From: Spirosoma spitsbergense DSM 19989
Lineage (GTDB): Bacteria; Bacteroidota; Bacteroidia; Cytophagales; Spirosomataceae
Direction: 5' to 3'
Assembly (NCBI RefSeq): GCF_000374085.1
Contig: NZ_KB893455.1
Location: 1-64,000 of the forward strand
DNA length: 64,000 bases
Positions 20,407 through 45,394 of this stretch are shown in pieces; position 1 is the first letter of the stretch, and the number at the start of each line of letters is the position of its first letter. The notes beneath the pieces are model-generated. The model searched no databases. It had not been told where the DNA came from and worked only from the letters and a program-made list of their open reading frames with translations. A program made the position numbers and the translations under genes.

Positions 20407-23400
20407 ATGCGAAACGCTTTACGATGCCTGCAACTTCTCTGTTTGCTGGCCATTTCAACCCTCACCGCCCTCGCCCAGACCCCTATTTCGGGACGGGTAA
20501 CCGGTGAGCAGAACGAAGGAATTCCCGGCGTAACGGTGTCTATAAAAGGCTCCACCCGCGGAACAACGACGGATGCCACAGGAACCTTTAAACTCAACGC
20601 ATCCAGTAACGAAACGCTGGTATTCAGCTATGTAGGCTACACCAGTCAGGAAGCACTGGTGGGTAATAAAACAGAGTTCTCCATCAAACTCGCCCCCGAC
20701 ACCCGGAGCCTGGAGGAGATTGTGGTGGTAGGGTACGGTACCGTTAAGAAGAGTGATTTGACCGGGTCTGTATCGACCATCAAAGCGGAAGCCATCAAAG
20801 AAATGCCGGTAGTTTCTGTCGATCAGGCCATTCAGGCGCGGGCTGCGGGCGTACAGGTAACGCAGAGTTCGGCCGCACCGGGCGGGGGAATATCCATCCG
20901 GGTGCGCGGGGCCAACTCCATCAACAGCGGCAGCGAGCCGCTTTACGTTATCGACGGATTTCCGCTCTATCCCGACAATGGCGCTATCGGCACCGGGGGC
21001 AACCGGCAGCCAACGAACGCAATGGCTACCATCAACCCCAATGAAATTGAAAGTATCGAAATTCTAAAAGATGCCTCGGCTACCTCTATTTACGGCTCGC
21101 GGGGCGCGAATGGCGTGGTACTCATTACCACCAAACGCGGTAAGGAAGGCCAGAGCCGGGTCGATTACGAAGGGTCCTATTCCACGCAAACCATCGCCCG
21201 CAATATCGACGTGCTGAACGGTGGCGACTACGCCCGTTACCTGAATATTCTGGAGAAAAGTCAGGGCGGCAACCCGCGCTTTACCGATACCCAAATCAAT
21301 CAGATTGGACAGGGGACCAACTGGATGGACGTTATTTCGGGCACGGGTAGCCTGTCTAACCACCAGCTTTCGTTTACGGGTGGCAATAAGTCCATGCGCT
21401 ACGCCGTGGTGGGTAACTACGTGGAGAACAAGGGCGTAATTACCAATACGTTCTTTAAACGGTACGGCTTCCGGCTCAACCTCGATAATGATTTCCTGAA
21501 TGGCCGGGCTACGCTGAGCAATAGCTGGTCGTATAACCGGACGGGCAACAGCAATGTACCCACCGACCGGGGCGGTCCGGGGGGTATCATCATCACAGCC
21601 CTCGGCCTCGACCCAACCGTGCCGGTCTACAACTCGAACGGAAATTACAATTACCCCAGCTACGACCAGCGATTCACGATCAACCCCTTAGCCGAAGCGC
21701 AGCAGGGCTACGACCGCGATAACCTCAACCGTCTGTTCGGTACCACCGCCGTCACGTTTAATATTATTGACGGGCTTAAATTCCGGACCAGCATCGGGGC
21801 CGATGTGCTGAGTGCCGAACGGACTACGTTCTACAACAGCTATACTTACCTCGGCCGGCAGTACGACCGGCAACTGGAGAAAGCAGACCGGAACGTAACC
21901 AGCCTGCTGAACGAGAACATTCTGAGCTACAACAAACAGCTCGCGCCAGGCCATACCATCGACGCAACGCTGGGCTACACCTACCAGAAAGAAAGCAACC
22001 TGTACAATTCGGTGGCTACGCGGGGGTTACCCTCCGACGATGCCCTGTCGGTGAACCTGCAAAACGGCAGCAAGCCGCAGATTCCATTTTCGGGTCGGCA
22101 GGACTGGACGCTACAATCCATGCTGGGCCGGGTAAACTACAACCTCAATGACCGGTATTTGCTCACGTTCACCTTCCGGCGCGATGGGTCGTCCAAATTC
22201 GGGCCAAACAATAAGTGGGCTACCTTCCCATCCGGGGCTATTGGCTGGCGCGTGGTCAACGAGAACTTCTTTCAGAGTTCAGGACTGGGCAAGGTGTTCA
22301 ACGATTTCAAGTTCCGGGCCAGCTACGGCCTGACGGGTAACTCGCAGATTCCGGTGTACCGGTCGGTGGGTGGTCTGGTACCGTACAACTACGTGCTTGG
22401 CGGCAACCTGGTAGCGGGCTACGGCCCCGACCGGATTGCGAATCCCGACCTTAAATGGGAAAGCACCGCCATGCTGGACCTAGGCCTTGACCTGGCCCTG
22501 CTGAACAACCGGCTCTCGATGACCTTCGATGTATTCAGCAACAAGACCAGCGATTTGCTGCTCGACGTGTCAATTCCGCAGAGTACCGGCTTCAGCACCA
22601 TCCTGCTCAATTCCGGTTCACTGACCAATAAAGGCGTTGAGTTTTCGACCAATTACAAAGTAATCAGCAACAAGGCACTGACCTGGGATGTGAGCGGTAA
22701 CATTTCGGTACTGCGGAATGAAATCACCAGCCTGGGACAGAGCACGCCCTTCTTCGCCAACAGCACGAGCGGTCACCTCGGCGTTTTCGGTAGCTGGGTA
22801 GAAGCGGGCAACCCCATCGGCGTCTGGAAAGGCTACAAGTACACGGGCCTGTTCCAGACCGACGAAGAAGCGAAAACCTTCGCGGCCCGTGCAGGCTACC
22901 CGAAGTATGAAGATGTGAACGGTGATGGTAAGTACACCTCCGACGATTACCAGATTATTGGCAACCCGAACCCGAAATTTACGTGGGGCCTGAATTCCAG
23001 CGTGAAGTTCAGTAACTTCGATTTCACGATTTTCTTCCGGGGCGTTCAGGGCAATCAGGTGCGTAACCTGCAGCAGTCCGAAATGGGCGATGGTGTTCAG
23101 AAAATCAACCAGATTGCCAACATCCTGACCGATTCATGGACGCCCACCAACACGGGCGCCAGCCGCCCCGTTATTGATGGTCGCCGGGACTTTATCTCCT
23201 TTCGCCGGTCGTCATTCTTCATTCAGGATGGTTCGTTTGTCCGGCTGCAAAACGTAGTGCTGGGCTATACCATACCCCTCAAGACGAAGTTCATTCGTAA
23301 CGCCCGCGTCTACGCCAGTGGTCAGAACCTGTTCCTGATCACGAAGTACAAAGGCTTCGACCCGGAGGTAAATAACCAGGGACAGAACAACCTGAACCGG

Positions 23401-23466
23401 GGCGACGACTACGATGCGTACCCCCGCGCCCGGATGCTGACATTCGGTGTAAATCTTGGCTTATAA
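20407..23466 (+). CDS. SusC/RagA-type TonB-linked outer-membrane transporter (first pair)
   Basis: SusC proteins import oligosaccharides or peptides through a 22-strand outer-membrane barrel with a SusD lid. This 1019-residue protein has a signal peptide ending ALAQ (about 24), a carboxypeptidase-regulatory-like domain (PISGRVTGEQNEGIPGVTVSIKG), the TonB box region LEEIVVVGYGTVKKSDLTGS, and a plug with SIRVRGANSINSGSEPLYVIDGFP and IEILKDASATSIYGSRGANGVVLITTK. The barrel ends with FGVNLGL. All the family hallmarks are present and no break is seen. SusD follows 30 bp downstream. It is read divergently from the cupin AraC regulator. Confidence 0.95.
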   Translation: MRNALRCLQLLCLLAISTLTALAQTPISGRVTGEQNEGIPGVTVSIKGSTRGTTTDATGTFKLNASSNETLVFSYVGYTSQEALVGNKTEFSIKLAPDTRSLEEIVVVGYGTVKKSDLTGSVSTIKAEAIKEMPVVSVDQAIQARAAGVQVTQSSAAPGGGISIRVRGANSINSGSEPLYVIDGFPLYPDNGAIGTGGNRQPTNAMATINPNEIESIEILKDASATSIYGSRGANGVVLITTKRGKEGQSRVDYEGSYSTQTIARNIDVLNGGDYARYLNILEKSQGGNPRFTDTQINQIGQGTNWMDVISGTGSLSNHQLSFTGGNKSMRYAVVGNYVENKGVITNTFFKRYGFRLNLDNDFLNGRATLSNSWSYNRTGNSNVPTDRGGPGGIIITALGLDPTVPVYNSNGNYNYPSYDQRFTINPLAEAQQGYDRDNLNRLFGTTAVTFNIIDGLKFRTSIGADVLSAERTTFYNSYTYLGRQYDRQLEKADRNVTSLLNENILSYNKQLAPGHTIDATLGYTYQKESNLYNSVATRGLPSDDALSVNLQNGSKPQIPFSGRQDWTLQSMLGRVNYNLNDRYLLTFTFRRDGSSKFGPNNKWATFPSGAIGWRVVNENFFQSSGLGKVFNDFKFRASYGLTGNSQIPVYRSVGGLVPYNYVLGGNLVAGYGPDRIANPDLKWESTAMLDLGLDLALLNNRLSMTFDVFSNKTSDLLLDVSIPQSTGFSTILLNSGSLTNKGVEFSTNYKVISNKALTWDVSGNISVLRNEITSLGQSTPFFANSTSGHLGVFGSWVEAGNPIGVWKGYKYTGLFQTDEEAKTFAARAGYPKYEDVNGDGKYTSDDYQIIGNPNPKFTWGLNSSVKFSNFDFTIFFRGVQGNQVRNLQQSEMGDGVQKINQIANILTDSWTPTNTGASRPVIDGRRDFISFRRSSFFIQDGSFVRLQNVVLGYTIPLKTKFIRNARVYASGQNLFLITKYKGFDPEVNNQGQNNLNRGDDYDAYPRARMLTFGVNLGL

Positions 23467-23496
23467 TCCTCAGAACTTCCTAAGACAACATATAGC

Positions 23497-25065
23497 ATGA
23501 AAATCAACCTATCTCCCCGAATCACGTACCCGCTGCTGGTGGCCCTGATGGCCGCCGGTGCCGGTTGTTCGGACCTCAAAGAAAATCCGGATTTCATCAA
23601 CCCTGACACGTTCTACAAATCGGCGACGGAACTCCAGTTGGGGGTCAACGGCGTATACGACGACCTAAACTCCGGCTTCTCCGGCTACTTCTACGACCGC
23701 TACGTGTTCGAGTGCCTCACGGGCGATCAGATTGGCTGGGAAAAAGGGCCGTTGCAGTACAACCTCGGCAACGTCAGTTCGGCAGATGAGTACATTGAAG
23801 CATACTGGTCTATCAGCTACCGGTCCATCAACCGGGCCAACGCCGTAATCGAAACCGCCGACGCCATGAAAGACGCCACGAACGATGCGCTGGTGAAGCG
23901 ACTGAAAGGGGAAGCGCAATTTCTGCGGGCGTTCTACTACTACGGCCTGCTGAGTTATTTCGATAGCCCGCCCCTCACCACCAAATCGACCAAAGGCATC
24001 AGCGAACTGCCATCCAACACGGGCGGTAAACGGGCGGTAATCGACCAGATTTATGCCGATGCCAAAGCCGCTGCCGATGTACTTCCTGCATCTTATACCG
24101 GTGCCGATGTGGGCCGGGCCACAAAATGGGCCGCCAAAACGATTCTGATGAAGGCCCAGTTATGGGACGAGAAATGGGCCGATGCCAAAACAACGGCCGA
24201 TGACATCATCACCAACAGTGGCGTTCAGTTGTTCGATAACTTTGCTTATAACTTCGACCTGGCGCACGAAAACCAGGGCGAGCGGTTGTTTGAAGCGCAA
24301 ATATCAGCATCCGCCAACGCTAACGAATACAATGTTCATTCGGCCCACTTTAACCCCGAAGACTACCCCAGCGATTTGGGCGGAGCGGGCTGGAGCTGGC
24401 TGAGTGCTACGCAGGAGTTCCGGGCGTCATACGATGCGAAGGACAAACGGATTGACGGTACCTTTATCGAGACCTACCCTACGGGCCGGTTCGGCAAAGT
24501 GGATGGTGCCTACCCAATGGTGAAATGGAGTCCAAAAGCGGATTTTAACCTGTCGCGTTTCGGCGGTATCGTCAAGTCGGATGCCAACCCCCGCGACCCG
24601 GCGCAAATGATTTTCGGTAAAGCCTGGTCAAATAAATTGGTGGAACTGGGCACTAACTGGACCAACACCGAGAAGAATACCATCTACCTGCGTTTGGCTG
24701 ATGTGCTGCTGGGCCATTCCGAAGCGTGCAATGAAAGCGGCCAGGGTGACAAGTTTATGGGTATCAACAAAGTACGTGCCCGCGCTGGCCTGACAGCCCT
24801 GAGCGGTTTGAGTCAATCGGCCCTGCGCGATGCCATTATTCAGGAGCGCGAACAGGAGTTCGTATTTGAGCAGGTAATGTACCCGGAGTTGCGCCGGAAG
24901 AGTAAATTCGGGGCAACGCCGGATTATCTGGGCAACCACATCAACCATTACATCACTAAATATAACGCGGGCCGGACGCTAAAGGCGCGGGACTATGTAC
25001 TGCCGCTGCCACTAAAGGAAATGCAGGGGAATACTAATGTTACCCAGAACAAAGAGTGGCAGTAA
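23497..25065 (+). CDS. SusD/RagB-type nutrient-binding lipoprotein (first pair)
   Basis: SusD proteins cover the SusC barrel on the cell surface and bind the substrate. The 522-residue protein starts with a lipoprotein signal ending in the lipobox AGAGC (Cys24 or close). The N-terminal helices carry the TPR-like part (LKGEAQFLRAFYYYGLLSYF). Near the end are the conserved INKVRARAGL, IIQEREQEFVFE and YVLPLPLKEM stretches typical of the family. Two hairpin terminators follow, so SusC and SusD form their own transcription unit. Confidence 0.94.
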   Translation: MKINLSPRITYPLLVALMAAGAGCSDLKENPDFINPDTFYKSATELQLGVNGVYDDLNSGFSGYFYDRYVFECLTGDQIGWEKGPLQYNLGNVSSADEYIEAYWSISYRSINRANAVIETADAMKDATNDALVKRLKGEAQFLRAFYYYGLLSYFDSPPLTTKSTKGISELPSNTGGKRAVIDQIYADAKAAADVLPASYTGADVGRATKWAAKTILMKAQLWDEKWADAKTTADDIITNSGVQLFDNFAYNFDLAHENQGERLFEAQISASANANEYNVHSAHFNPEDYPSDLGGAGWSWLSATQEFRASYDAKDKRIDGTFIETYPTGRFGKVDGAYPMVKWSPKADFNLSRFGGIVKSDANPRDPAQMIFGKAWSNKLVELGTNWTNTEKNTIYLRLADVLLGHSEACNESGQGDKFMGINKVRARAGLTALSGLSQSALRDAIIQEREQEFVFEQVMYPELRRKSKFGATPDYLGNHINHYITKYNAGRTLKARDYVLPLPLKEMQGNTNVTQNKEWQ

Positions 25066-25070
25066 GCAAA

Positions 25071-25115
25071 TTGAATCAAAAAAAGGGGCTTGAGAAAGCC
25101 CTTTTTTTGATTCAA
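25071..25115 (+). terminator. Strong hairpin terminator after the first SusD
   Basis: Arms 25071-25090 and 25097-25115 pair over 19 bp with one bulged G, around loop TGAGAA. The GC-rich core GGGGCT/AGCCC is followed by a run of T (25102-25108), and the outer arms continue the stem. Confidence 0.8.
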
Positions 25116-25154
25116 AACCCGGCTCCGTTGGCTAAAGCCGAACGGCAACCAATA

Positions 25155-25199
25155 AAAAGCCCCCAAGGACTGGATAAATTGAGCTCCACCGGGGCTTTT
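25155..25199 (+). terminator. Second terminator-like hairpin after SusD
   Basis: AAAAGCCCC at 25155-25163 pairs with GGGGCTTTT at 25191-25199, leaving a 27-nt loop. The stem ends in a T-run. It is a backup terminator, weaker because of the long loop. Confidence 0.5.
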
Positions 25200-25357
25200 A
25201 GTCCATTGCTGTTGGGCTTATTGAGTTGAACAAAGTAACCGCCGACCAACAATCGCCTTTTCGCCCCTGCTGATCTGGTCGCAATCCGGCGGTTATTTAC
25301 GTCAAATCAATTGGCCGACGGTGAGAAAGCATAAAAGGCAATACGACAATTCCTCCT

Positions 25358-28300
25358 ATGAAGTACGTAACAGCGGTATGGTTTATTTGTAGTCTGATGG
25401 CCTGTTCGCACACATCAGACACGCTGTTTACGACACTTTCCCCAGCTGAATCGGGCGTTGATTTTCAGAATACCATCGCCGAAAACGACACCGTCAACCT
25501 CGTCGATTACTACTACGTCTACAACGGTGGGGGTGTGGCCGTAGGTGACATTAATAATGACGATTTGCCCGATTTGTACTTCACCGGCAATCAGGTGGGC
25601 GACCGGTTGTATCTGAACATTACGAAGCCCGGTTCGGAGCATCCCCAATTTAAAGACATCACCCAAACGTCGGGCATCCGCAAAGCGGGCTGGTCGACAG
25701 GGGTAACGATGGCGGATGTCAACGCCGACGGGCTGCTGGACATTTACGTCTGCAAATCAGGCAATTACCCCGGAAATCGCCGAAAAAATCAACTGTACAT
25801 CAACAAAGGCAGTGCAGCAGGAGAGTCACCTCATTTTGCCGAACAGGCCGACCAGTACGGCCTTGCCGATACGACCTACACCAATCAGGCGGCTTTTCTG
25901 GACTATGACCACGATGGCGACCTCGACGTTTATCTACTCACGAGTACCAACCTGATTCGTAACCCCAATCAGGTAACGCCCGTCATTGCCGACGGCTCCG
26001 GACTAGCTAGCGACAAGCTATTTCGCAACGACTCCGATGCCAGCGGCCCGCACTTCACCGACGTAACGAAAGCCGCCGGGATTCTACACGATGGCATGGG
26101 GTTGGGCCTGACGGTAGCCGATTTCAATCAGGATGGCTGGGACGATATTTACGTGGCGAATGATTTTCTGGCGAATGATTTCCTGTACCTCAACAACCGC
26201 AGTACCCGCCCTGGCGAATCGGCGTTCAGCGAAGTCGGCAAGACCTATTTCAAGCACCACAGTCAGTTTTCCATGGGCTGCGATGCCGCCGACATCAACA
26301 ACGACGGACTGACGGACCTCGTGGTGGCCGATATGCTCCCGGCCGATAACGAGCAACGCAAGAAAATGGCGGGACCGGCTAACTATCAGCAGTTTGAATC
26401 CATTACCAGGCAAGGGTATCACCCGCAGTTTATGCGGAATATGCTCCAGGTAAACGGGGGCAAAGCACCCGACGGGCGCATGGTCTTTTCCGAAATCGGG
26501 CAGTTGGCGGGTGTGTCGGCTACCGACTGGAGCTGGTCGCCGTTGCTCGCCGACCTGGACAATGACGGGTGGCGCGATTTGTTCATCACCAACGGCTACC
26601 TCCGCGACATTACCGACCTGGACTTTGTATCGTTCAACAACAACGTGGCGCAGGAAGGAAGTCGCACCCCGGACGAGGTTAACCGGTATCTAAGGCAGGG
26701 AGCCACTAAAATGCCCAGTATCAACAAGCCAAACCGCTTCTTCCGCAATCGGCACGATTTGACCTTCGACGACGTTACGGCAAGCTGGTTCGGGACGGAG
26801 TCATCCCTCTCCAACGGGGCCTCCTATGCCGACCTCGACCGCGATGGTGACCTTGATCTGGTCGTCAACAATATCAACCAACCCGCCTTCATTCTCCAGA
26901 ATAACACCGCCAACACGCATTACGTCCAGCTAAAACTACGGGGACCGGCACAAAACCTCTTCGGGCTGGGAGCCGACGTAACGGTGTACAGCCGGGGGCT
27001 GACGCAAACGTACCATCAGGCCGTTACGCGGGGCTACCAGTCGTCGGGCGATTACATTATTCACGTCGGGCTGGGATCGGCCAGTCAACTTGACTCGGTG
27101 CGGGTGGTTTGGCCCGATGGTAAAGCGCAGACGCTAACCAACCCACCCATCAACCAACTTCTTACCCTGGAACATGGGCAGGCCCGCACGATACCGGCGC
27201 GGCCCCAGCCAGCACCATCCACCCTGCTCACGGACGTAACGGAAGCTTCCGGCCTGAATTTTACGCATCAGGAAGAGCCGTATTTAGACTATAACCAGGA
27301 GCCCCTGCTGCCCCATAAACTCTCCCAACAGGGGCCGAAACTAACCGCCGGTGATGTTAATGGCGACGGACTCGAAGACCTGTTTGTGGGTGGCTCGTTC
27401 CGGCATTATGGCAAACTGCTGCTCCAGACGTCGGCGGGGCGGTTTATCGAGAAAGCCTACACCGATGAGTCGCAGCCGAAAGATGAAGAAGACGTGGGCG
27501 CGTTGCTGTTCGATGCAGATGGCGATGGCGATAAGGACCTCTACATCGTGAGTGGCTCCAACGAGTATTACGACGGCTCGGTCTATTACCAGGACCGGCT
27601 CTACCTCAACAACGGCAGCGGCACCTTCACCAACGCCACGGACCACCTGCCCCCCATCCGGCACAGTGGCTCATGCATCGTAGCGGCTGATATTGACCAC
27701 GATGGCGACCTCGATTTATTCCGGGGGGGGCGGCTGCGGGCGTTGCAGTACCCGCTGTCCGGCGAAAGCAGTTTGCTCATCAACGAAGGCGGGCGGTTTC
27801 GGGAAGCTACCGATGCGCTGGCGCCCGGCCTGAAGTCGGCCGGTATGGTGACGGATGCTATCTGGGCCGACATTGACCGGGATTCGTGGCCGGACCTGAT
27901 TGTGGTGGGTGAGATGATGCCGATAACCATTTTCAGGAACAACAAAGGACATCTGGAGCATCTGGAAAGCCAGTCGCTGGCGGGATCGGACGGGTTCTGG
28001 AACTGCATCCGGGCGGGTGACTTCGACAACGACGGCGACCCTGATTTCGTGCTGGGAAACCTCGGCCTGAACAGTCGCTACCGGGTTTCGCCCACACAGC
28101 CCATGCGCGTCTACGCCGGAGATTTCGACGGTAACGGGCGGCTGGATGCCATCTCGACCTATTACTTGCAGGACCAGGAATACCCTATCGCATCCCGCGA
28201 TGAGTTGGGACGGCAGTGGCCGGGCATCAAAAAGCAGTTCACGAGCTACGCGCTCTACGCCAAAGCCAGGCTCACGGACTTACTGTCGCCGGAGCAGCAA

Positions 28301-28720
28301 AAAGCCAGTACCAGGCTGCGGGCCTGCGTGCAGCAAAGTATCCTGCTCGAAAACACGGGAAACGGCACGTTCCGGCTGAAGCCTTTACCGATGCTGGCAC
28401 AGTGGGCACCCATTCAGGATTTTCTGGTCGATGATATTGACCGGGACGGTAATCTGGATGTGCTGGCCGTTGGCAACGCCTACGATACTGAGTCGATAGC
28501 CGGGCAGTACGACGCCATGACGGGGCTACTGCTACGGGGCGACGGACGCGGAAAATTCCAGCCATTGCTTTTCTCCAAAAGTGGTTTTCTGGCCGATGGT
28601 GATTGTAAAAGTATTGTCCGATTGACCAGTAAAGCCCAGCCGATCTATGTGGTATCAGCGAATAAAGCACCCTTACGGGTGTTCCAGTCTCAAAATCAAA
28701 AATCAACAGCATTGCCCTAG
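25358..28720 (+). CDS. CRTAC1-like VCBS/FG-GAP double-propeller lipoprotein
   Basis: The 1120-residue protein begins with a lipoprotein signal (VWFICSLMAC). It carries 14 calcium-binding FG-GAP loops of the type DxDxDGxxD: DINNDDLPD, DVNADGLLD, DYDHDGDLD, DFNQDGWDD, DINNDGLTD, DLDNDGWRD and DLDRDGDLD in the first half; DVNGDGLED, DADGDGDKD, DIDHDGDLD, DIDRDSWPD, DFDNDGDPD, DFDGNGRLD and DIDRDGNLD in the second. Between the two sets, at about residues 518-608, lies an ASPIC/UnbV domain (HYVQLKLRG ... VRVVWPDGKAQ). This reads as two seven-bladed propellers around UnbV. Such proteins are surface or periplasmic and often sit in SusCD loci. The function is unknown; binding of glycan or protein is likely. 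It has terminators on both sides. Confidence 0.88.
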   Translation: MKYVTAVWFICSLMACSHTSDTLFTTLSPAESGVDFQNTIAENDTVNLVDYYYVYNGGGVAVGDINNDDLPDLYFTGNQVGDRLYLNITKPGSEHPQFKDITQTSGIRKAGWSTGVTMADVNADGLLDIYVCKSGNYPGNRRKNQLYINKGSAAGESPHFAEQADQYGLADTTYTNQAAFLDYDHDGDLDVYLLTSTNLIRNPNQVTPVIADGSGLASDKLFRNDSDASGPHFTDVTKAAGILHDGMGLGLTVADFNQDGWDDIYVANDFLANDFLYLNNRSTRPGESAFSEVGKTYFKHHSQFSMGCDAADINNDGLTDLVVADMLPADNEQRKKMAGPANYQQFESITRQGYHPQFMRNMLQVNGGKAPDGRMVFSEIGQLAGVSATDWSWSPLLADLDNDGWRDLFITNGYLRDITDLDFVSFNNNVAQEGSRTPDEVNRYLRQGATKMPSINKPNRFFRNRHDLTFDDVTASWFGTESSLSNGASYADLDRDGDLDLVVNNINQPAFILQNNTANTHYVQLKLRGPAQNLFGLGADVTVYSRGLTQTYHQAVTRGYQSSGDYIIHVGLGSASQLDSVRVVWPDGKAQTLTNPPINQLLTLEHGQARTIPARPQPAPSTLLTDVTEASGLNFTHQEEPYLDYNQEPLLPHKLSQQGPKLTAGDVNGDGLEDLFVGGSFRHYGKLLLQTSAGRFIEKAYTDESQPKDEEDVGALLFDADGDGDKDLYIVSGSNEYYDGSVYYQDRLYLNNGSGTFTNATDHLPPIRHSGSCIVAADIDHDGDLDLFRGGRLRALQYPLSGESSLLINEGGRFREATDALAPGLKSAGMVTDAIWADIDRDSWPDLIVVGEMMPITIFRNNKGHLEHLESQSLAGSDGFWNCIRAGDFDNDGDPDFVLGNLGLNSRYRVSPTQPMRVYAGDFDGNGRLDAISTYYLQDQEYPIASRDELGRQWPGIKKQFTSYALYAKARLTDLLSPEQQKASTRLRACVQQSILLENTGNGTFRLKPLPMLAQWAPIQDFLVDDIDRDGNLDVLAVGNAYDTESIAGQYDAMTGLLLRGDGRGKFQPLLFSKSGFLADGDCKSIVRLTSKAQPIYVVSANKAPLRVFQSQNQKSTALP

Positions 28721-28742: not shown

Positions 28743-28778
28743 AAAAAGGCTGTCGGGTGGTTCCTGGCAGCTTTTTTT
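28743..28778 (+). terminator. Terminator after the CRTAC1-like gene
   Basis: GCTGTC pairs with GGCAGC (one G-T) inside flanking A and T runs, with an 11-nt loop, and ends in seven T. It lies 22 bp after the stop. Confidence 0.65.
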
Positions 28779-28957
28779 CTATGTTCATCCTGACCAAAGC
28801 GTATCCACACCACTCGACCAGTCACCCTTTTTCACCCGGCGTAATTAATGAAATAGACAGGCCGATGGCCAGAAAATAAGGTACTATAGCCCTCATAACC
28901 ATAATAATGTCCATTAAAAGCGAAATTTGCTCCATTCCGGTTAGGACTATAATGGCT

Positions 28958-28965
28958 TAAATTTG
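28958..28965 (+). promoter_or_regulatory. -7 element before the PSD1-DUF1501 unit
   Basis: TAAATTTG is an exact TAnnTTTG match 24 bp before the ATG at 28990. Coming after a terminator, it suggests that the cytochrome and DUF1501 genes start their own transcript. No TTG lies at a proper -33 distance. Confidence 0.4.
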
Positions 28966-33265: not shown

Positions 33266-33561
33266 TAAGATAGGATCCGGCATTCGTAACGGGCTACACG
33301 TTGATTGCCTGAATCGGCCTGTGTAGAGACGATTGGTGACCTGTCTATCTGAAATACGGCCTTACCGAACGGATTCAAATCGTTTCTAAAGAATGGTGAG
33401 CCGGGAAAATCAACAGTAAATCTGACGGCTAATTCACTCTTTTGGGTAAGTGTGCGCATGACTCAACCGGATGCCGGCAATCACGTCAATCGCTGAACCC
33501 GATTAATGAACCAGTTAAACCAGTGCTACTGAAGTCGTATAGCATACGGCCCATTTCCCCC
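33266..33561. other. 296-bp gap between DUF1501 and the first sulfatase
   Basis: No gene, hairpin terminator or clear promoter is seen. The open frame that continues from 33442 into the sulfatase is not taken as coding, because the lipoprotein signal starts at 33562. Confidence 0.5.
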
Positions 33562-35118: not shown

Positions 35119-35244
35119 CCCATAGTGGCTGCTTCGGAATTACGCACGATTCACCAGAGCCTCACGATGAACTCGTTAAACTGAAGGAAAATAATGAGAC
35201 GCTCACCGTCAACGAAGTATCGCAGGAAGACAGCAGCAATAACA

Positions 35245-35333
35245 GACGCTACGCTATTGTGTCCCTACGGGACGAGCCAAATGGGTAAACGTATTCTTCT
35301 ACCGACGCTACGCTGTTTTGTCCCTGTGGGACG
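35245..35333. repeat. Pair of REP-like palindromic repeats overlapping the sulfatase 2 start
   Basis: Two 30-bp copies at 35245-35274 and 35304-35333 match at 26 of 30 positions and are 59 bp apart. Each starts GACGCTACGCT and ends in a perfect small palindrome, GTCCCTACGGGAC (35261-35273) and GTCCCTGTGGGAC (35320-35332). This is the layout of REP elements spread by RAYT transposases. The second copy lies inside the signal-peptide codons of the next gene. Confidence 0.75.
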
Positions 35334-37398: not shown

Positions 37399-38979
37399 AT
37401 GTTTAAACAGCACACGTTGGCACAAATCAGCCATCGCATCCATCTGGCAGCTATCATCGGATTTCTGTTCACGTTAGTGCTGACCGCTGGGTTCGTTGGT
37501 TCGGTTGAGCGTTCCAAACCCGCGAACCCGAACGCGACGGAACGCAGCCCGGCGGGCCGGGCTGCCGGACCACCCAACATCCTGTTCATTCTGGTTGACG
37601 ACCTGGGCTGGCGGGATATCGGGGCTTTTGGCAGTTCGTTCTACGAAACCCCGAACATCGACGCCCTGACCCAAAAGGGCGTTAAGTTTACCAACGCCTA
37701 CGCAGCCTGCCCCGTCTGCTCGCCAACCAGGGCCAGCATCATGACCGGCAAGTACCCCGCCCGGATGCATACGACCGACTGGTTTGGTGCCCCGCAGCCC
37801 GAAACGGTCGGTAAACACTGGACAAAGAACAAACCACTGCTGCCTGCTCCTTACGAAGAGAACCTGCCACTGAGCGAAATTACCCTGGCCGAAGCGTTAA
37901 AGAGCCACGGGTACAGCACCTTTTTCGCGGGGAAGTGGCACCTGGGCGAAACGGCCGACTTCTGGCCCGAAAAACAAGGTTTTGATATCAATAAAGGGGG
38001 CTACGAAGCCGGTTCACCGCGCGGAAAAGGCTATTTCGTTCCCTACGCCAATCCCCGCCTGACCGATGGCCCGCCGGGCGAAAACCTCACCAACCGCCTG
38101 GCCGACGAGACCGTAGCGTTTATCAACGAACACAAGTCCGGTCCGGGCCGCGTTCGGCCTTTTCTGGCCTACCTTTCTTTTTACGCAGTACATAATCCGC
38201 TGGGTGCTCCGCAGGAGCTGGTCGATAAGTACACCGAAAAAAGGAAGAGGCTGGGTCTGGACGATCAGTGGGGTCAAGAAGGAAAGAGCAAAGTCCGGCT
38301 TAATCAGTCGCTGCCCGTGTACGCGGCTCTGGTCGAGACGATGGACCGGGCGGTGGGCAAGGTAATAGCTTCGTTAGCGAAAAACGGGGTAGACAGGAAC
38401 ACCATCGTTATTTTCATGTCCGACAACGGGGGCTTGTCAACGGCCGAGGGGCATCCCACCTCGAACCTGCCCCTGCGGGGCGGTAAGGGCTGGCTCTACG
38501 AAGGGGGCATCCGGGAGCCGATGGTTATTTACTGGCCGGGCCACGCTTGGCCCGGCGTTACGAAAGCGGGCCGCACCAGTGACCAGGTGGTAACGAGCAC
38601 CGATTTTTATCCGACCATCCTGGAGATGACGGGGCTGCCTTTGTTACCCGCCCAGCATAGAGATGGCATAAGTATGGTACCCGTCCTGCGCGGCAAAAAA
38701 ATGCCGCGCGGGCCCGTTTACTGGCATTACCCACACTACGGCAATCAGGGCGGCTCACCCGGTTCGGCGGTGCGGGATGGCGACTGGAAGCTGATCGAAT
38801 GGTTTGAGGACGGGCGTGGTCTGGAACTCTACAACCTCTCCTCCGACATCGGCGAACAAAAAAATCTGGCCGCAAGTAATCCGGCTAAAGTGCGCGAACT
38901 GCACGATAAACTGGTATCCTGGCGGAAGGCAGTCGATGCCCGCCTACCCACAAAGAATCCGGCTGCGGTGGAACCGTAA
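37399..38979 (+). CDS. Sulfatase 3, Cys-type (arylsulfatase A-like)
   Basis: The 526-residue protein starts at ATG 37399 with a signal or anchor (HLAAIIGFLFTLVLTAGFVG). A 25-residue Pro/Ala/Arg-rich linker follows (ERSKPANPNATERSPAGR); its DNA is GC-rich and includes a GCGTTCC/GGAACGC inverted repeat. The catalytic domain shows ILVDDLGWRDIG, Cys107 in CSPTR, FAGKWHLGE, and FMSDNGG near the end of the metal site. Closing motifs are HYPHYGNQGGSPGSAVRDGDWKL and the C-terminal ELYNLSSDIGEQKNLA. It is the best match of the three to ordinary S1 arylsulfatases (S1_16-like by feel, not shown). It ends the sulfatase run. Confidence 0.93.
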   Translation: MFKQHTLAQISHRIHLAAIIGFLFTLVLTAGFVGSVERSKPANPNATERSPAGRAAGPPNILFILVDDLGWRDIGAFGSSFYETPNIDALTQKGVKFTNAYAACPVCSPTRASIMTGKYPARMHTTDWFGAPQPETVGKHWTKNKPLLPAPYEENLPLSEITLAEALKSHGYSTFFAGKWHLGETADFWPEKQGFDINKGGYEAGSPRGKGYFVPYANPRLTDGPPGENLTNRLADETVAFINEHKSGPGRVRPFLAYLSFYAVHNPLGAPQELVDKYTEKRKRLGLDDQWGQEGKSKVRLNQSLPVYAALVETMDRAVGKVIASLAKNGVDRNTIVIFMSDNGGLSTAEGHPTSNLPLRGGKGWLYEGGIREPMVIYWPGHAWPGVTKAGRTSDQVVTSTDFYPTILEMTGLPLLPAQHRDGISMVPVLRGKKMPRGPVYWHYPHYGNQGGSPGSAVRDGDWKLIEWFEDGRGLELYNLSSDIGEQKNLAASNPAKVRELHDKLVSWRKAVDARLPTKNPAAVEP

Positions 38980-39068
38980 GGACGGATTCTACGGATGTAG
39001 CACAACTCGCAAAAATGGTTGAGCTGTTTAGCACGCTTTTCCGACTGAAAAAACTAAGCTATTGAGCC

Positions 39069-39861: not shown

Positions 39862-42800
39862 ATGGGAGCACGTATACGCAGTGCATTTCTTGTACTCCTC
39901 ACCCTGGCACTATTACCCGACTTGTACGCCCAGGGGCAAGTCATCACGGGCACAGTTACATCGGCCAAAGATGGCAGTGTTTTACCGGGTGCCAACGTCC
40001 AGGTCAAAGGCACCAGCCGGGGCACAACCACCGATGGTTCGGGCAACTACAAACTAACCGTTGGGCCTAACGCTACACTCGTCTTTAGCCTGATTGGTAT
40101 GGTCAGCCAAACGGTTGAGGCTGGTTCGAGAAGTCAGATTAACGTTAGTCTGGCAGAATCAGCTTCCGAACTAAACGAGGTCATCGTAACGGCGCTCGGT
40201 ATTCGTCAGGAGAAACGGGCATTGGGCTACACCGTAAGCGAAGTAAAAGGGCAGGATATTGTCAATGCCCAGCGCGACAACTTCCTGGTGGGTTTACAGG
40301 GGCGCGTGGCGGGTCTGACCATGACCACCACCTCGGGAACACCCGGCTCGTCGGCGTCGATTCAGTTGCGGGGTGCCAGCTCCATTGGGGGCAATAACCA
40401 GCCTTTGTTTGTGGTGGACGGTCTGCCCATCGACAACCGTACCTTCAATCAGGGCGCCCTGGTATCCAACCGCCCCAACCGCGACAACGATTACCTGAAC
40501 CGGGCCGCCGACATTAACCCGAATGATATCGAGAGCATTACGGTACTGAAAGGGCCGGAAGCCGCAGCCCTCTACGGCATCGATGCCTCCTCGGGTGCCA
40601 TTGTTATCACCACCAAACGGGGTGCCAAAGGGGCCGCCCGCGTCACGTACGACAACCGCTTTCAGAGCACGGAAGTATACCGGTTTCCCGAAGCCCAAAC
40701 CACCTACGGACGCGGTACCCTGGGGTATCCCAATGCCAATGCCACCACGTATTTTGGCCCCAAATACCCGTCTGATGCCCCTATTTACGACAACGTGCGC
40801 AGCTTTTTCCAGAAAGGCTTCACGCAGGTACACAACATCGGTTTCGAGGGGGGCAGCGACGTGGCCACCTACCGGCTTTCGACTAACTACACCAACCAAA
40901 CGGGCGTTGTGCCTACCACGGGCTACAAACGCCTGTCTGTCCGCCTGACCGGTACGGCCCGCATCAACCCGAAACTGGACGTGATGACCTCGTTCAACTA
41001 CGTCAATTCGCAGGTAACGAAGGCCATTCGGGGCAATAGTGGATTCCTGATTGGGCTGCTTGCCTGGCCCGCCAACGATGATATTACCAGTTACCTGAAT
41101 CCGGACGGTACCCGCCGGATTTTACTGGGCAGCATCAACCAGGGAGAGCCTGATAACCCGTTTTTCTCCGTCAACAGAAATAAAAGTGGCGACGTGACGA
41201 ACCGGACCATCGCCAACTTCCAGTTGAATTATAACCCAACGCCCTGGCTGAATCTGGTTGGTCGTTTTGGTGCCGATTTGTATTCTACACAGAGCAATCT
41301 GTTCCTGAATCCGGAATCGTGGCAGGGAACGGACGTAACCCTGGGTGGTTTTTCAACGAGAGGATCGGTGGAGAATGCCCTGGAAAACAGCCAGTTGCTC
41401 AACGGAAACTTCCTGGCTACGGTGAAGAAAAACTTTGGCAAACTGAGCACCTCGCTGTTGATGGGTACTACCATCGACGACCGAAACTATAAGGTAACGA
41501 CGGCCTACGGCGAACGGCTGTACCTGCCCGATTTCAACTCGACCAACAACACGGACCCGACCACGCAGCGCAACAAATACACTCAAACGCAGCAGCGGCT
41601 ACAGAGTGTACTGGGTAGCCTGACGCTGAACTACGATGAGTTGCTGATTCTGACCCTGACCGGCCGGAATGACTGGTCGAGTACCCTGCCGGCTGCCAAC
41701 CGGAGCTTCTTCTACCCGGCGGCTTCGCTGGCGTTCAACTTCTCCGACTTGCCCGCGTTCAAAAATCGGGGCAACACGTTCTACTACGGTAAACTACGGG
41801 CCAGCTACGGCCAGACCGGCCGGGATGCGCCCCCGTATAAAGTGGCCGCCACGCTGGTTCCCCAGACGACTACCGGTGGCGGTTTCGCGTATGACTTCTA
41901 CGGGAGCAATTCAGACCTGAAACCAGAGCGCGGAGAGAGTTACGAGCTGGGTACCGAACTGATGTTTTACGGCGGACGCCTGGGTCTCGACTTTGCCTAT
42001 TATAACAAGACACTGTCGCAGCAGATTGTTACGCAGCGACTCAGCTACGGAACGGGCTACATCTTCGGGCTGCTCAACGGCGGCACGTTCAACAACCGGG
42101 GGGTCGAGATTCAGTTGAAAGGTACGCCCGTCAAAAAGGCTGATTTTGGCTGGGATGTTATCCTGAACTTCTCAAAACTGGCTACGGACGTTAAGAATCT
42201 GCCCGCCGACGTACCGGAATATTACAATTCAGATACCTGGCTGTATAACAACGCCCGCTCCAGTGCGTTCGTGAACAACCTGCCGTCTTATTTCCCCAGC
42301 GACAACCCGGCCTACCGCAGCTATAACTTCGATTATTATCAGCGCGGTAGTGGCTCGGCTACGGCCATTGGGGGGTACAGTTACGCCCGGAATAAAGCCG
42401 GTGATATCCTGGTTAACCCAACGAACGGACTGCCCATTACAAACAATACCTTCCTGCCCATTGGCGACCGGAATCCGGACTTCACCATTGGCCTGACGAA
42501 CTCGTTCCGATATAAATCCCTGAGTCTATCGTTCCTGCTCGACATCCGCAAAGGGGGCGACGTGTTCAACGGCACGGCCATGTACCTCTGGCGCACCGGC
42601 CTGAGCAAGCGCACCCTCGACCGCGATGTACCCGTTACGTTCAAGGGCGTTTTGCGCGATGGCAAAGAAGATACCGGCACCCCAACGCCGAACACCATTC
42701 AGGTGGTACCCGCGCTGCGCTCAACGGATTATTACAATTCCATTCCGGAGTCGGAGTTTGTGGAGCGGGACATCAACTGGCTACGATTGCGCGACGTGAC

Positions 42801-43029
42801 CATTAGCTACGTGATTCCAACGGCCCTGCTGACCCGGACGAAGGTGTTCAAGCAGGCCAGTGTCTTTTTGAACGGCACCGACCTGTTTCTGTGGACCAAT
42901 TACACCGGGGCCGACCCGAACGTAAACGGCACTACGGCAACATCGGGTGGTGTTGGCGCGGGCGGCATCGACTTCGGCACGCTATCCGTCCCCCGCGGCC
43001 TATCCGCCGGTATACGTCTTGGATTCTAA
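39862..43029 (+). CDS. SusC/RagA-type TonB-linked outer-membrane transporter (second pair)
   Basis: The 1055-residue protein begins with a signal peptide (SAFLVLLTLALLPDLYAQ). A carboxypeptidase-regulatory-like domain (VITGTVTSAKDGSVLPGANVQVKG) follows, then the TonB box area ELNEVIVTALGIRQEKRALGYTVSEVKG. The plug reads SASIQLRGASSIGGNNQPLFVVDGLP and ITVLKGPEAAALYGIDASSGAIVITTK, and a beta barrel completes it. The GIRQEKRALGY variant marks the branch that pairs with SusD-like_2 proteins, as is the case here. It is not a copy of the first SusC: plug and barrel differ at most positions, so a different ligand is likely. Confidence 0.95.
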   Translation: MGARIRSAFLVLLTLALLPDLYAQGQVITGTVTSAKDGSVLPGANVQVKGTSRGTTTDGSGNYKLTVGPNATLVFSLIGMVSQTVEAGSRSQINVSLAESASELNEVIVTALGIRQEKRALGYTVSEVKGQDIVNAQRDNFLVGLQGRVAGLTMTTTSGTPGSSASIQLRGASSIGGNNQPLFVVDGLPIDNRTFNQGALVSNRPNRDNDYLNRAADINPNDIESITVLKGPEAAALYGIDASSGAIVITTKRGAKGAARVTYDNRFQSTEVYRFPEAQTTYGRGTLGYPNANATTYFGPKYPSDAPIYDNVRSFFQKGFTQVHNIGFEGGSDVATYRLSTNYTNQTGVVPTTGYKRLSVRLTGTARINPKLDVMTSFNYVNSQVTKAIRGNSGFLIGLLAWPANDDITSYLNPDGTRRILLGSINQGEPDNPFFSVNRNKSGDVTNRTIANFQLNYNPTPWLNLVGRFGADLYSTQSNLFLNPESWQGTDVTLGGFSTRGSVENALENSQLLNGNFLATVKKNFGKLSTSLLMGTTIDDRNYKVTTAYGERLYLPDFNSTNNTDPTTQRNKYTQTQQRLQSVLGSLTLNYDELLILTLTGRNDWSSTLPAANRSFFYPAASLAFNFSDLPAFKNRGNTFYYGKLRASYGQTGRDAPPYKVAATLVPQTTTGGGFAYDFYGSNSDLKPERGESYELGTELMFYGGRLGLDFAYYNKTLSQQIVTQRLSYGTGYIFGLLNGGTFNNRGVEIQLKGTPVKKADFGWDVILNFSKLATDVKNLPADVPEYYNSDTWLYNNARSSAFVNNLPSYFPSDNPAYRSYNFDYYQRGSGSATAIGGYSYARNKAGDILVNPTNGLPITNNTFLPIGDRNPDFTIGLTNSFRYKSLSLSFLLDIRKGGDVFNGTAMYLWRTGLSKRTLDRDVPVTFKGVLRDGKEDTGTPTPNTIQVVPALRSTDYYNSIPESEFVERDINWLRLRDVTISYVIPTALLTRTKVFKQASVFLNGTDLFLWTNYTGADPNVNGTTATSGGVGAGGIDFGTLSVPRGLSAGIRLGF

Positions 43030-43060
43030 TCGGACCTCTTACATCTTATCACATACATCA

Positions 43061-44581
43061 ATGAAACGTTTTACACTCGTCGCCCTGCTAATCAGTCTGA
43101 TGACGCTGAGCAGCTGCGATAACTACCTCAATATAAACCGGGATCCCTCGAACCCACAGGTGGCGGAAGGGTATGTACTGTTGCCCCCCATGTTTGCCCA
43201 GATGGCCTTTGGCGAGCAGTTCGATTCCCGCTTTATCGGCAAATACGTTCAGAACTGGGGCGATGCCTCGGTCAATAACAACTGGGACCGCATGGGCTAC
43301 GATGCCGGTTCCGACAATGCCGGGTTAATCTGGCGGGTACACTACTGGAACCTCGGCGAAAACATCCGGCTTGTGCTCGACGATGCAGCTGCCAAGCAGA
43401 AGTGGGATTATAGTGGCGTAGCCAAAGCGATATTCGCCTGGAGCTGGCAAACGACTACCGACTACCACGGCGAAATAATCCTAAAAGAAGCCTTCGAGCC
43501 AAACCGCTATGTGTTCGATTATGATACGCAGGAAGAAGTGTACGCCTACGTCCAGAAACTGACGAACGATGCCATCACGGACCTGAACCGCACCGATGGT
43601 AACGTATCGCAGGCATCGCTGGCGCGGGGTGACCTGGTTTACGGGGGCGACCGCAGCAAATGGATTAAGTTCGCCTACGGTGTGCTGGCCCGGAATGCCA
43701 ACCACATCAGCAACAAGGCGAGCTACAAACCCGATGTGGTGATTGATTACTGCAACAAATCGCTGGCGAGTAATGCCGACAATTTCAACGTGCCTTTCAC
43801 GGCTGGTGGCAACTCGGCCCTGATGAATTTCTTCGGCACTACCCGGAGCAACATCGGTACCTATCGCCAAACAGATTTTCTGGTCAGTTTGCTGGATGGC
43901 CGGGTCTTTAACGGGGTAACCGACCCCCGTTTACCGATTCTGGCTACGGCTTCGCCCGACGGCGTTTATCGCGGTGTTACGCCTACGCAGGGCGATCCGA
44001 ACAACGTGAACGGAAACACGAAACGGGTTCCTACATTCTGGGGTGAATTACCGAACCTGGTATCCAGCACCTCACCGGGTAAGTACATTTACAAAGATGG
44101 CGCCCCTTTCGCCATCCTGACCTACGCTGAAATTCAGTTCATCAAAGCCGAAGCGGCCTTCATTAAAGGCGACAAAGCAACGGCTCTGAGTGCGTATCAG
44201 GCGGGTATCGGAGCGGCCCTCGATTACGCGGGCATAGCATCGGCCGACAAAGCAAAGTATCTGGCCAGTGCGGCCGTAGCGCAGTCGGGCGGCACGCTGA
44301 AAATCAGCGACATTATGATGCAGAAATACCTCGCGCTGGCGGGTCACGGTATCATTGAAAGCTGGGTGGATTTGCGCCGGTACCACTACGACCCTACGGT
44401 GTACGTTGGTTTCACGCCCCCACCCACCAACAACCTCTTCCCCGACAACAACGGAAAACTGGCCTATCGGGTACGTCCGCGCTATAACTCCGAATACGTC
44501 TGGAACCGGGCATCACTGGATAAATACGGCGGCAACGCGTTGGATTATCACACGATGGAGCCCTGGTTCAGTCAGAAGTAA
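43061..44581 (+). CDS. SusD-like nutrient-binding lipoprotein (second pair)
   Basis: ATG 43061 is chosen; the open frame extends upstream into SusC only by chance. The 506-residue protein begins MKRFTLVALLISLMTLSSC, a lipoprotein signal with Cys19. It reads DNYLNINRDPSNPQ next, the typical start of the SusD-like_2 (SusD/RagB outer-membrane lipoprotein) group. Later motifs: YTQE-like YDTQEEVYAYVQKLTNDAITDL, FAILTYAEIQFIKAEAAF (TPR-like helix) and IMMQKYLALAGHGIIESWVDLRRYHYDP. It sits 31 bp after SusC and 51 bp before a DUF4397 lipoprotein. Confidence 0.93.
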   Translation: MKRFTLVALLISLMTLSSCDNYLNINRDPSNPQVAEGYVLLPPMFAQMAFGEQFDSRFIGKYVQNWGDASVNNNWDRMGYDAGSDNAGLIWRVHYWNLGENIRLVLDDAAAKQKWDYSGVAKAIFAWSWQTTTDYHGEIILKEAFEPNRYVFDYDTQEEVYAYVQKLTNDAITDLNRTDGNVSQASLARGDLVYGGDRSKWIKFAYGVLARNANHISNKASYKPDVVIDYCNKSLASNADNFNVPFTAGGNSALMNFFGTTRSNIGTYRQTDFLVSLLDGRVFNGVTDPRLPILATASPDGVYRGVTPTQGDPNNVNGNTKRVPTFWGELPNLVSSTSPGKYIYKDGAPFAILTYAEIQFIKAEAAFIKGDKATALSAYQAGIGAALDYAGIASADKAKYLASAAVAQSGGTLKISDIMMQKYLALAGHGIIESWVDLRRYHYDPTVYVGFTPPPTNNLFPDNNGKLAYRVRPRYNSEYVWNRASLDKYGGNALDYHTMEPWFSQK

Positions 44582-44632
44582 GCGAACGAAAGCCCTTCAT
44601 GGGGCCTGTCAACCTATCAACTCATTCATCCA

Positions 44633-45394
44633 ATGAATTATAAACCAACAGCATTCCTGCTCCTCATCAGTACTCTTTTCCTGTGGTCATGCGGGGATAC
44701 GGCCGACTTCCGGAACTCGGTGGTGCCCGCTACGGGAGCGCGGGTCAAGTTTTACCACGCAGCCCCCGACGCAGCCGGTATTGACATCTACGTGAACGAC
44801 CAGAAGTTTTCGGGAGTCAACACCGTTCCACCAGCGGTACCCGCCCTACTGACGTACTTCAACTCGTTCCCGAATCAGGACTACGCCCTTGTAACACCGG
44901 GTACGGCTAAGGTGAAAGTAGTAACACCGGCCAGCACTACAGTAACCACCGATGCCACCCTGGCGACTGCCGATTTGACTACGCAGGCCGATACGTACTA
45001 TTCGGTGTTCCTGTATGGCACGGCACCAACGTACAACACCCTGACACTGACCGATAACCTGACCGTTCAGGACCCGGCACAGGCATATGTACGCCTGGTA
45101 AACCTCGTATCGGGCGCAGATGCCGCTGCTACCTACGATTTGGTCGTTAATGGTACGGTGGTTGCATCAGGCATTGCTCCATTGAAAGGAGCAGCTACGT
45201 TCTTTCCCATACCCGCCATTGCCTACGCGACGACGGCGGTACCAGTTCAGATTAGACCTACTGGTGCATCAACCGTCCTTGCATCAACTACGCTGCAACC
45301 GTATGCCAGTCGGTTCTATACGTTAGTGGCACGGGGTATAGTGGGCGGTACCACTACCAAAGCGGTTATTCTGTCGGTTTCCACCAATAGGTAA
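44633..45394 (+). CDS. DUF4397 lipoprotein
   Basis: The 253-residue protein has a lipoprotein signal (FLLLISTLFLWSC, Cys20) and one or two DUF4397 beta domains. The hallmark GARVKFYHAAPDAAGIDIYVND appears near residue 35, with a second similar unit VRLVNLVSGADAAATYDLVVNG near 155. DUF4397 proteins are predicted surface or periplasmic beta-sandwich proteins with unknown function. Last gene of the SusCD unit, closed by a perfect terminator; it may act as an additional surface glycan-binding protein. Confidence 0.85.
   Translation: MNYKPTAFLLLISTLFLWSCGDTADFRNSVVPATGARVKFYHAAPDAAGIDIYVNDQKFSGVNTVPPAVPALLTYFNSFPNQDYALVTPGTAKVKVVTPASTTVTTDATLATADLTTQADTYYSVFLYGTAPTYNTLTLTDNLTVQDPAQAYVRLVNLVSGADAAATYDLVVNGTVVASGIAPLKGAATFFPIPAIAYATTAVPVQIRPTGASTVLASTTLQPYASRFYTLVARGIVGGTTTKAVILSVSTNR

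Follow-up and report, generated by a model that had tools for sequence, protein, structure and literature searches.

A SusCD locus of Spirosoma spitsbergense that appears to form one regulon with a haem-c cytochrome/DUF1501 gene pair

Related systems and the scope of comparison

Polysaccharide utilization loci (PULs) of the Bacteroidota typically combine the SusC/SusD import genes with a lipoprotein gene after SusD, a glycoside hydrolase, a regulator and a common promoter element. The first 64,000 nucleotides of contig NZ_KB893455.1 of Spirosoma spitsbergense DSM 19989 (assembly GCF_000374085.1), referred to below as the window, contain a locus that has all of these parts and, unlike any PUL met in our literature search, adds a further unit under the same element. 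This unit consists of a PSCyt gene, whose predicted product joins two haem-c motifs to PSCyt1, PSCyt2/DUF1549 and PSD1/DUF1553 domains, and a DUF1501 gene directly behind it; we refer to the two genes as the pair. With moderate confidence, we regard the whole as an AraC-linked oligosaccharide-utilisation locus that links SusCD import with a haem-c redox pair in the periplasm.

In Rhodopirellula baltica, each of two domains of the PSCyt/PSD kind was counted 41 times, according to the accessible part of PMC2754498. The accessible part of He et al. (2017, PMC5615132) describes PSCyt genes that carry carbohydrate-binding domains and lie beside gene families of unknown function and near sulfatases, proposes for them a role mirroring that of glycoside hydrolases, and states that the function of PSCyt/PSD proteins was not known at that time. 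The window pair resembles these planctomycete and verrucomicrobial proteins in its domain combination, its carbohydrate-binding domain and the adjacent family of unknown function (PMC5615132, same part), and differs from them in being tied to SusCD by the upstream element, in having a glycoside hydrolase family 2 (GH2) gene in its locus and in lacking a general tie to sulfatases. In a literature search with subscription papers and preprints outside its scope, no paper combined DUF1501 with DUF1553, or DUF1501 with SusD and sulfatase, and by title and start of abstract no SusCD-linked PSCyt/DUF1501 PUL was found. To our knowledge, no reaction has been assigned to PSCyt/PSD proteins since 2017, and the literature search turned up none. 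The SusCD regulon link of the pair looks new, while the architecture and the sugar hypothesis have already been published for Verrucomicrobia.

Other described systems touch single parts of the locus. The lactose 3-dehydrogenase LacABC together with DUF1080 (Price et al. 2022, accessible part of PMC9007349) likewise oxidises sugar in the periplasm and has epimerase-like genes as partners, whereas its protein families differ from ours by name (they were set apart by names, not by sequence) and DUF1080 is depleted near pairs. With the formylglycine sulfatases and the alkaline phosphatase superfamily, DUF1501 shares the fold, without the formylglycine motif and with changed metal-site residues. 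The GH2 protein of the locus has its nearest curated model in BT4151, from a rhamnogalacturonan-I PUL; the match, at 845 bits, stays under the family's cut-off of 1500. The accessible part of PMC8002723 gives enzymes of the BT4151 type as exo-beta-1,4-galactosidases of that PUL.

The upstream element and the conserved locus

On the forward strand, the gene of the TonB-dependent transporter SusC1 (20407..23466; Pfam Plug and CarbopepD_reg_2) is followed after a gap of 30 bp by that of the SusD1 lipoprotein (23497..25065; SusD_RagB, 100 bits) and then by that of an FG-GAP/ASPIC lipoprotein (25358..28720). With nine FG-GAP_3 stretches and UnbV_ASPIC at residues 536-603, the latter is probably a double propeller, and it may occupy the slot of a surface glycan-binding protein. 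The pair lies downstream, with a single base pair between the stop of PSCyt (28990..31755) and the start of DUF1501 (31757..33265; Pfam, 518 bits). Both SusC1 and PSCyt are preceded by an operator-like element of 27 bp with two TCCATT direct repeats: copy 1 at 20243..20269, where the repeats stand in a 21-bp register, and copy 2, an exact match to the pattern, at 28910..28936, 54 bp 5' of PSCyt. Because this element stands before both units, only there, and is kept in relatives, we see the SusCD import genes and the haem/DUF1501 pair as a probable single regulon; judged from the DNA, SusC1-SusD1-FG-GAP and PSCyt-DUF1501 look like two transcription units of it.

The pattern TCCATT-N7-AAATT-N2-CTCCATT has exactly two matches in the 7.5-Mb assembly, the two copies named above, and allowing up to 2 mismatches adds no further site. 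Compared directly, the upstream regions of SusC1 and PSCyt reach a best 27-bp identity of 21/27, a value attained by 2 of 1000 dinucleotide shuffles and the highest of the 21 pairwise values for seven upstream regions taken from the window. In 8.48 million strand-positions of the DNA examined, no more than three other positions attain 21/27, one of them the SusC1 site. In front of sulfatase 1, SusC2, the major facilitator superfamily (MFS) gene and the FG-GAP gene, the best element site is no better than in shuffles.

Relatives of the locus keep the element. It occurs 5' of SusC1 at 20/27 in each of L236, L237 and L238 and 5' of PSCyt at 22-25/27 in L228, L230, L231, L240 and L241, which gives, own genome included, four genomes on the SusC1 side and six on the PSCyt side; three further genomes (G205, G172 and G058) carry it upstream of SusC1 and PSCyt alike. 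At all ten sites a spacer of 21 bp leads to a box resembling TAnnTTTG, the Bacteroidota -7 consensus (accessible part of PMC7366714), with a match of 6/6 at PSCyt and 5/6 at SusC1. In the window, the PSCyt box reads TAAATTTG (28958..28965). The divergent AraC-family regulator (19223..20104, reverse strand; HTH_18 and AraC_binding) is a candidate for the protein that reads the element.

Several observations count against a single regulon: the pattern was drawn up after both sites were known, so the shuffle figure of 2/1000 is the fairer measure; the reversed pattern used as a control, with up to 2 mismatches allowed, also has two matches; the next-best pair of upstream regions, sulfatase 3 and SusC2, is close behind at 20/27; and the MFS-GH2 unit has no element in front. 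Where the locus is of the type with an extracytoplasmic function (ECF) sigma factor and FecR, no element was seen 5' of SusC1 (L239) or of PSCyt (L232). A half-element scan gave 24 matches, equalled in 10 of 100 shuffles and thus no better than chance, and scans of the region for sigma-70 promoters and terminators did no better than shuffles. The gap between the FG-GAP gene and PSCyt holds a terminator-like hairpin (28743..28777, forward strand; 15 pairs followed by a T run) that fits two transcription units in the window only in part: judged by eye, a similar hairpin exists in G213 and none in the short gaps of L230 and L231 (G172 and G058).

The same gap varies in other ways among relatives. 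In L241 (G221) it contains, 5' of the element, a long perfect hairpin with arms of about 30 bp (by eye), and in G205 a gene for an FkbM-type methyltransferase on the opposite strand (L228:6229-7044) lies between FG-GAP and PSCyt, followed by the element and the pair.

Upstream of copy 1 and beyond the block described in the initial annotation, further genes share the strand of that block (10952-19226): an MFS sugar porter (10952..12292; Sugar_tr, 375 bits; NCBIfam sugar porter family, 361 bits, above cut-off), the GH2 glycoside hydrolase (12325..15096; Pfam GH2 domains), a GDSL-type esterase/lipase (15041..15823; Lipase_GDSL_2, 79 bits) and a DUF5107 plus TPR protein (15873..19226; Pfam). The AraC gene is likewise outside that block. 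In G205, G172 and G058, genes for AraC, MFS, GH2 and DUF5107 recur in various orders no more than about 10 kb from SusC1, the AraC orthologues at 547-577 bits; the DUF5107-TPR protein is also present in loci L233, L234 and L235, while the esterase is present in the G205 locus and was not seen in those of G172 or G058. We therefore delimit the conserved locus as 10952-33265, comprising MFS, GH2, GDSL esterase, DUF5107, AraC, SusC1, SusD1, FG-GAP/ASPIC, PSCyt and DUF1501. The argument for an oxidative or desulfating route drawn from the absence of a classical glycoside hydrolase in the block finds no support: a GH2 gene is present within 20 kb of SusD1 at 17 of 38 orthologous loci.

These loci were defined by SusD1 copies of at least 65% identity, found in 38 of 222 genomes of the family, own included; 43 genomes had a match, and five at 42-46% identity were dropped. 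A PSCyt gene lies within 9 kb of SusD1 in 27 of the 38 (own included), and an FG-GAP gene directly 3' of it in at least 19. The placement counts draw on 46 of 61 PSCyt rows, the other 15 being on other contigs or more than 1 Mb from SusD1, and for FG-GAP on the 20 best-placed rows among the matches listed. In 18 loci, all of genus g32 and in genomes without a GH2 match, PSCyt follows SusD1 directly. Nine loci have FG-GAP and GH2 but lack the pair within 9 kb; in G036, which is among them, a PSCyt stands at 12.7 kb. Eight hold FG-GAP, GH2 and pair, with PSCyt upstream in G155; G213 has FG-GAP and the pair on a contig of 12.7 kb; and G121 and G118, the latter with its locus at a contig end, have neither pair nor GH2. 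From this distribution, drawn from few genera, we infer that pair and GH2 may be exchanged as modules across SusD1 loci. The 11 loci without PSCyt within 9 kb speak against a coupling of SusCD1 and pair.

The genus g32 resembles Dyadobacter (L039), and the SusCD1-pair arrangement is also found in the culture-collection strain Dyadobacter sp. CECT 9623 (L039). In the one g32 locus read upstream (L239, G157), an ECF sigma and FecR pair stands before SusC1 instead. The FG-GAP copies in G205, G170, G174, G121 and G155 have one stop flagged inside the genome-search match; the open reading frame (ORF) in G205 (L228) is still 1115 aa long, and the flagged stop there may reflect an alignment running past the end of the gene.

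Distribution of the pair

The pair had been described as Planctomycete-type. Its domains bear this out, but the label is too narrow: of 81 genomes sampled from the family, 71 have PSD1, and so do 38 of 296 Bacteroidota sampled, spread over 26 of 139 genera. Among the best 80 of at least 585 DUF1501 relatives in named genomes, 79 bear Bacteroidota names, e.g., Spirosoma, Larkinella, Dyadobacter and Lacibacter, and one is labelled 'uncultured bacterium'. By these sequence matches, the pair is an ordinary inhabitant of Bacteroidota.

The own genome (7.5 Mb in 237 contigs) has nine DUF1501 and six PSD1 matches, with every PSD1 beside a DUF1501. Three of the six pairs are near SusCD: the window pair and the two that stand in tandem on contig C2. 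The run on C2 (~176000-205000, L015/L016) holds two SusCDs, two PSCyt-DUF1501 pairs, one of whose PSCyts is fused to DUF2231, a DUF2231-PSCyt1 cytochrome, DUF1080 (found in this genome only here), Gfo/Idh, DUF4432 and an isomerase-like gene, and is a candidate for a second, richer sugar-oxidation locus.

In a survey, 60 PSD1 regions of 20 kb were compared with 60 controls taken 150 kb away on the same contigs. The regions came from the top of the PSD1 matches listed, at contig positions beyond 165 kb so that a control exists. Two controls (L182 and L192) were dropped for holding a pair themselves, leaving 58, and one region without a long PSCyt ORF was set aside for the adjacency counts, leaving 59. 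Families were called by best score with profiles built here; those for the DUF2231-cytochrome and for PSCyt share the PSCyt1 domain. Control genes had at least 200 aa, tandem pairs were counted as one, and SusD had to lie on the same strand directly upstream.

By this measure SusD is directly upstream of 14 of 59 pairs and of 5 of 667 control genes (p = 1e-12, inflated by congeneric genomes; several survey genomes are congeneric, and the p-values are overstated in general). SusD anywhere in the region differs less (19/60 against 10/58, p = 0.088, weak), and since this whole-region difference reaches only that p-value, we place the SusD signal in immediate adjacency. The SusC profile matched 28 of 60 pair regions and 14 of 60 controls and was not used, because it also takes other TonB receptors. 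DUF1501 directly follows PSCyt in 54 of 59 loci. A DUF2231-PSCyt1 membrane cytochrome is present in 37/60 against 0/58; a xylose-isomerase-like TIM gene is found in 6/60 against 0/58, and FG-GAP in 1/60 against 1/58. The 80 named loci, many of them cut short, contain the DUF2231-cytochrome 55 times, TIM 39 times, SusD 14 times, rhaM six times and sulfatase four times. A cassette of PSCyt, DUF1501, sometimes rhaM, a TIM protein and the DUF2231-PSCyt1 cytochrome recurs in named Bacteroidota (L039:6685-14274, L057:7102-13950 and many of L028-L107); by eye, its xylose-isomerase-like TIM protein has a start resembling a twin-arginine translocation (Tat) signal.

With an FG-GAP gene allowed in between, 27 of 147 PSCyts, at 19 loci, are SusD-linked. 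Their SusDs fall into seven clusters at 40% identity, one of which accounts for 11 of the 19 loci, and on a FastTree tree the SusD link requires at least 11 changes. SusD linkage thus seems to have arisen repeatedly, but it is not the rule.

Several counts weigh against the model of a SusCD-coupled redox pair. No SusD was found within about 10 kb in 41 of 60 pair regions; a finding that pairs occur as often away from SusCD and sulfatases had been named as refuting the proposal, and in part this is what the survey returned. In the DNA examined, the nearest paralogue of the own genome (C183, 67% identity) is not next to SusCD, nor are the pairs on C36 and C219, the latter a contig of 29 kb. AraC (6/60 against 7/58) and Gfo/Idh (8/60 against 6/58) are not enriched near pairs, and DUF1080 is depleted (0/60 against 5/58), a count that tells against the known 3-keto route. 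The own genome has in addition three more distant DUF1501 copies without PSCyt. With 41 of 60 regions lacking SusD, the pair is, as far as gene order tells, a portable module and not an exclusive partner of SusCD. The claim of one 25-kb system finds support for the pair and SusCD1, joined by the common element, by adjacency and across several SusD families; it finds none for the sulfatases and the second SusCD.

The distant DUF1501 genes without a PSCyt beside them lie at L017:2739-5489, L020:6581-11585 and L021:8033-11240. In L017, Pfam assigns the gene before DUF1501 to DUF1800; the layout of L020 and L021 looks similar.

Predicted proteins, proposed reaction and rival readings

All genes named in the initial annotation were recovered at their positions by ORFs and Pfam. 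The PSCyt protein (921 aa) has exactly two CxxCH motifs, as had been noted, at residues 44 and 341, the second of them in PSCyt2/DUF1549. They are kept in 39/39 and 41/41 rows with letters there, and Met99, kept in 39/39 rows, is a plausible axial ligand of haem 1. In a structure model from 41 sequences (pLDDT 81.7), the insert has a CBM6 fold by Foldseek (1gmm, E 9.3e-7, TMt 0.76), the Pfam match to CBM_6 being weak (22.5 bits, cut-off 28.9). Among the parts compared it shows the lowest conservation (mean 0.43, the others 0.69-0.73), and at the same point nine other PSCyts carry Laminin_G_3 in five cases, a weak CBM_6 in one and neither in three. A changing insert on a constant remainder would fit one reaction with varying sugar specificity. 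Two of these nine proteins are fusions of DUF2231-PSCyt1 to PSCyt2-PSD1, which connects the pair with the membrane cytochrome. Model confidence is low in the conserved loops 244-255, 305-327 and 788-823, as expected if they wrap a cofactor. PDB sequence searches returned no confident relative of PSCyt or DUF1501, and for the helical PSCyt2/PSD1 part no convincing match was among the 50 Foldseek rows listed, which is a point against the redox model.

The resemblance of DUF1501 to the sulfatase fold was confirmed. Its model (47 sequences, pLDDT 74.6) finds LtaS/sulfamidase by Foldseek at E about 1e-7 (1.2e-7), with low TM-scores (TMq 0.29-0.38) that detract from the match, and hhalign aligns residues 350-474 to sulfatases at 93.9%. 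A Tat-type RR-x-F-L motif and a Cys at position 41 are each present in 46/47 rows. By sequence and model, the protein is Tat-type and lipoprotein-like, with an alkaline phosphatase/sulfatase fold and without the formylglycine motif. A rival reading makes DUF1501 the main enzyme, which would hydrolyse or transfer a phosphate, sulfate or related ester in a metal-dependent way, with PSCyt as redox sensor or electron-linked helper. Besides the fold, the invariance of D353, H355, E401, D422, H423, H424 and H475 (47/47 rows), candidates for a changed metal site, and the occurrence of DUF1501 away from PSCyt would suit such a role. We nevertheless judge it unlikely: C-x-P-x-R is missing from the window protein and found anywhere in only 1/47 rows, the D-N motif of sulfatases reads E-F in the hhalign alignment, and in the large majority of survey loci the gene directly before DUF1501 is that of its bigger partner, which carries haem motifs and a carbohydrate-binding fold.

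The best model remains periplasmic haem-dependent oxidation of an imported oligosaccharide, which in our estimate has an even chance of being right, the reaction being inferred from sequence. SusD1 and the FG-GAP lipoprotein would capture an oligosaccharide, probably one containing beta-galactose, and SusC1 would import it. In the periplasm, PSCyt would hold it by the CBM6-fold domain and oxidise a hydroxyl or linkage next to the second haem, with DUF1501, Tat-exported and probably metal-dependent, as the usual partner, either a lyase/hydrolase or a cofactor-bearing subunit. Electrons would leave via the first haem for the respiratory chain, with the DUF2231-PSCyt1 membrane cytochrome as intermediate in many relatives; GH2 and the esterase would finish the sugar, and the MFS porter would take it inward. 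The galactose-type substrate is suggested by analogy to BT4151, and the sub-threshold score of that GH2 match tells against it; GH2 aside, no other pectin enzyme family was among the Pfam matches of the locus.

More tentatively, and as a possibility only, PSCyt-DUF1501 could be a portable periplasmic 'glycosidase equivalent', an oxidative, haem-c, metal-assisted module that opens or marks glycosides and replaces or assists a glycoside hydrolase served by the same SusCD importer. If so, a family present in dozens of copies in one planctomycete would gain its first function, and SusCD loci an enzyme module of a new kind. With one pair, one element, one importer, one GH2 and one regulator, the question narrows to one inducing sugar, a deletion and a protein pair, and the locus offers a testable handle on a large unexplained protein family.

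Behind DUF1501 lie, on the same strand, three sulfatase genes: sulfatase 1 (33562..35118; Pfam Sulfatase, 183 bits; CTPSR), sulfatase 2 (35194..37272; 143 bits; CSPSR) and sulfatase 3 (37399..38979; 202 bits; CSPTR). The C-x-P-x-R motif and the Pfam domain in all three agree with their description as formylglycine-type. It had been proposed that the 25-kb run imports a sulfated glycan and removes its sulfate, redox pair and sulfatases sharing one substrate. The common strand of the genes, the position of sulfatase 1 after DUF1501 in the window and in G213 (cut there by the contig end), and the frequent adjacency of sulfatase and PSCyt genes in Verrucomicrobia (accessible part of PMC5615132) are in line with this; even so, we consider it quite improbable. 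Near pairs, sulfatases are not enriched (3/60 against 2/58). In the 22 of the 38 SusD1 genomes in which sulfatase 1 was sought (sulfatases 2 and 3 were not searched), those two are the only ones with a close copy after the locus; in 16 the best relative lies on a different contig or no nearer than 84 kb, four have none at threshold, and the 17 kb read in G205, as close a relative as G213, contain no sulfatase. Sulfatase 1 and SusC2 lack the element, and gaps of 296 bp before sulfatase 1 on the DUF1501 side and 882 bp between sulfatase 3 and SusC2 set the block off. Because of the missing enrichment and the 2/22 count, we reject the sulfated-glycan reading as a general rule; sulfatase 1 is probably outside the conserved system, and judged from the comparison the sulfatases and the second SusCD look like a lineage-specific neighbour.

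A 3-keto-glycoside route like that of LacABC, with the pair as dehydrogenase, shares the theme of periplasmic sugar oxidation. The own C2 run, with its two SusCDs, two pairs, DUF1080, Gfo/Idh and isomerase-like gene, had suggested it as a candidate, and LacABC with DUF1080 is reported from Caulobacter and other bacteria (accessible part of PMC9007349). The depletion of DUF1080 near pairs weakens it, and no other sugar-dehydrogenase family was among the Pfam matches of genes 10952-45394; we hold it to be rather improbable.

A further reading takes the pair for a general periplasmic module for stress or electron transfer that has no part in glycan use, its SusCD neighbourhood being incidental. 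It would accord with the many pair regions without SusD and with a Rhodopirellula PSD1/PSC2 gene tied to a stress-responsive ECF sigma factor (accessible part of PMC2754498), but is quite improbable in view of the common element with fixed promoter geometry at SusC1 and PSCyt, the SusD adjacency and the carbohydrate-binding inserts in PSCyts.

Beyond the sulfatases, a second SusC, a SusD-like_2 and a DUF4397 lipoprotein are encoded at 39862..45394 (forward strand; Pfam), and an ORF of 548 aa without a Pfam match at E 0.001 lies at 62019-63665. For sulfatase 1, the ATG at 33562, which by eye gives a lipoprotein-like signal, is a more likely start than the TTG at 33442.

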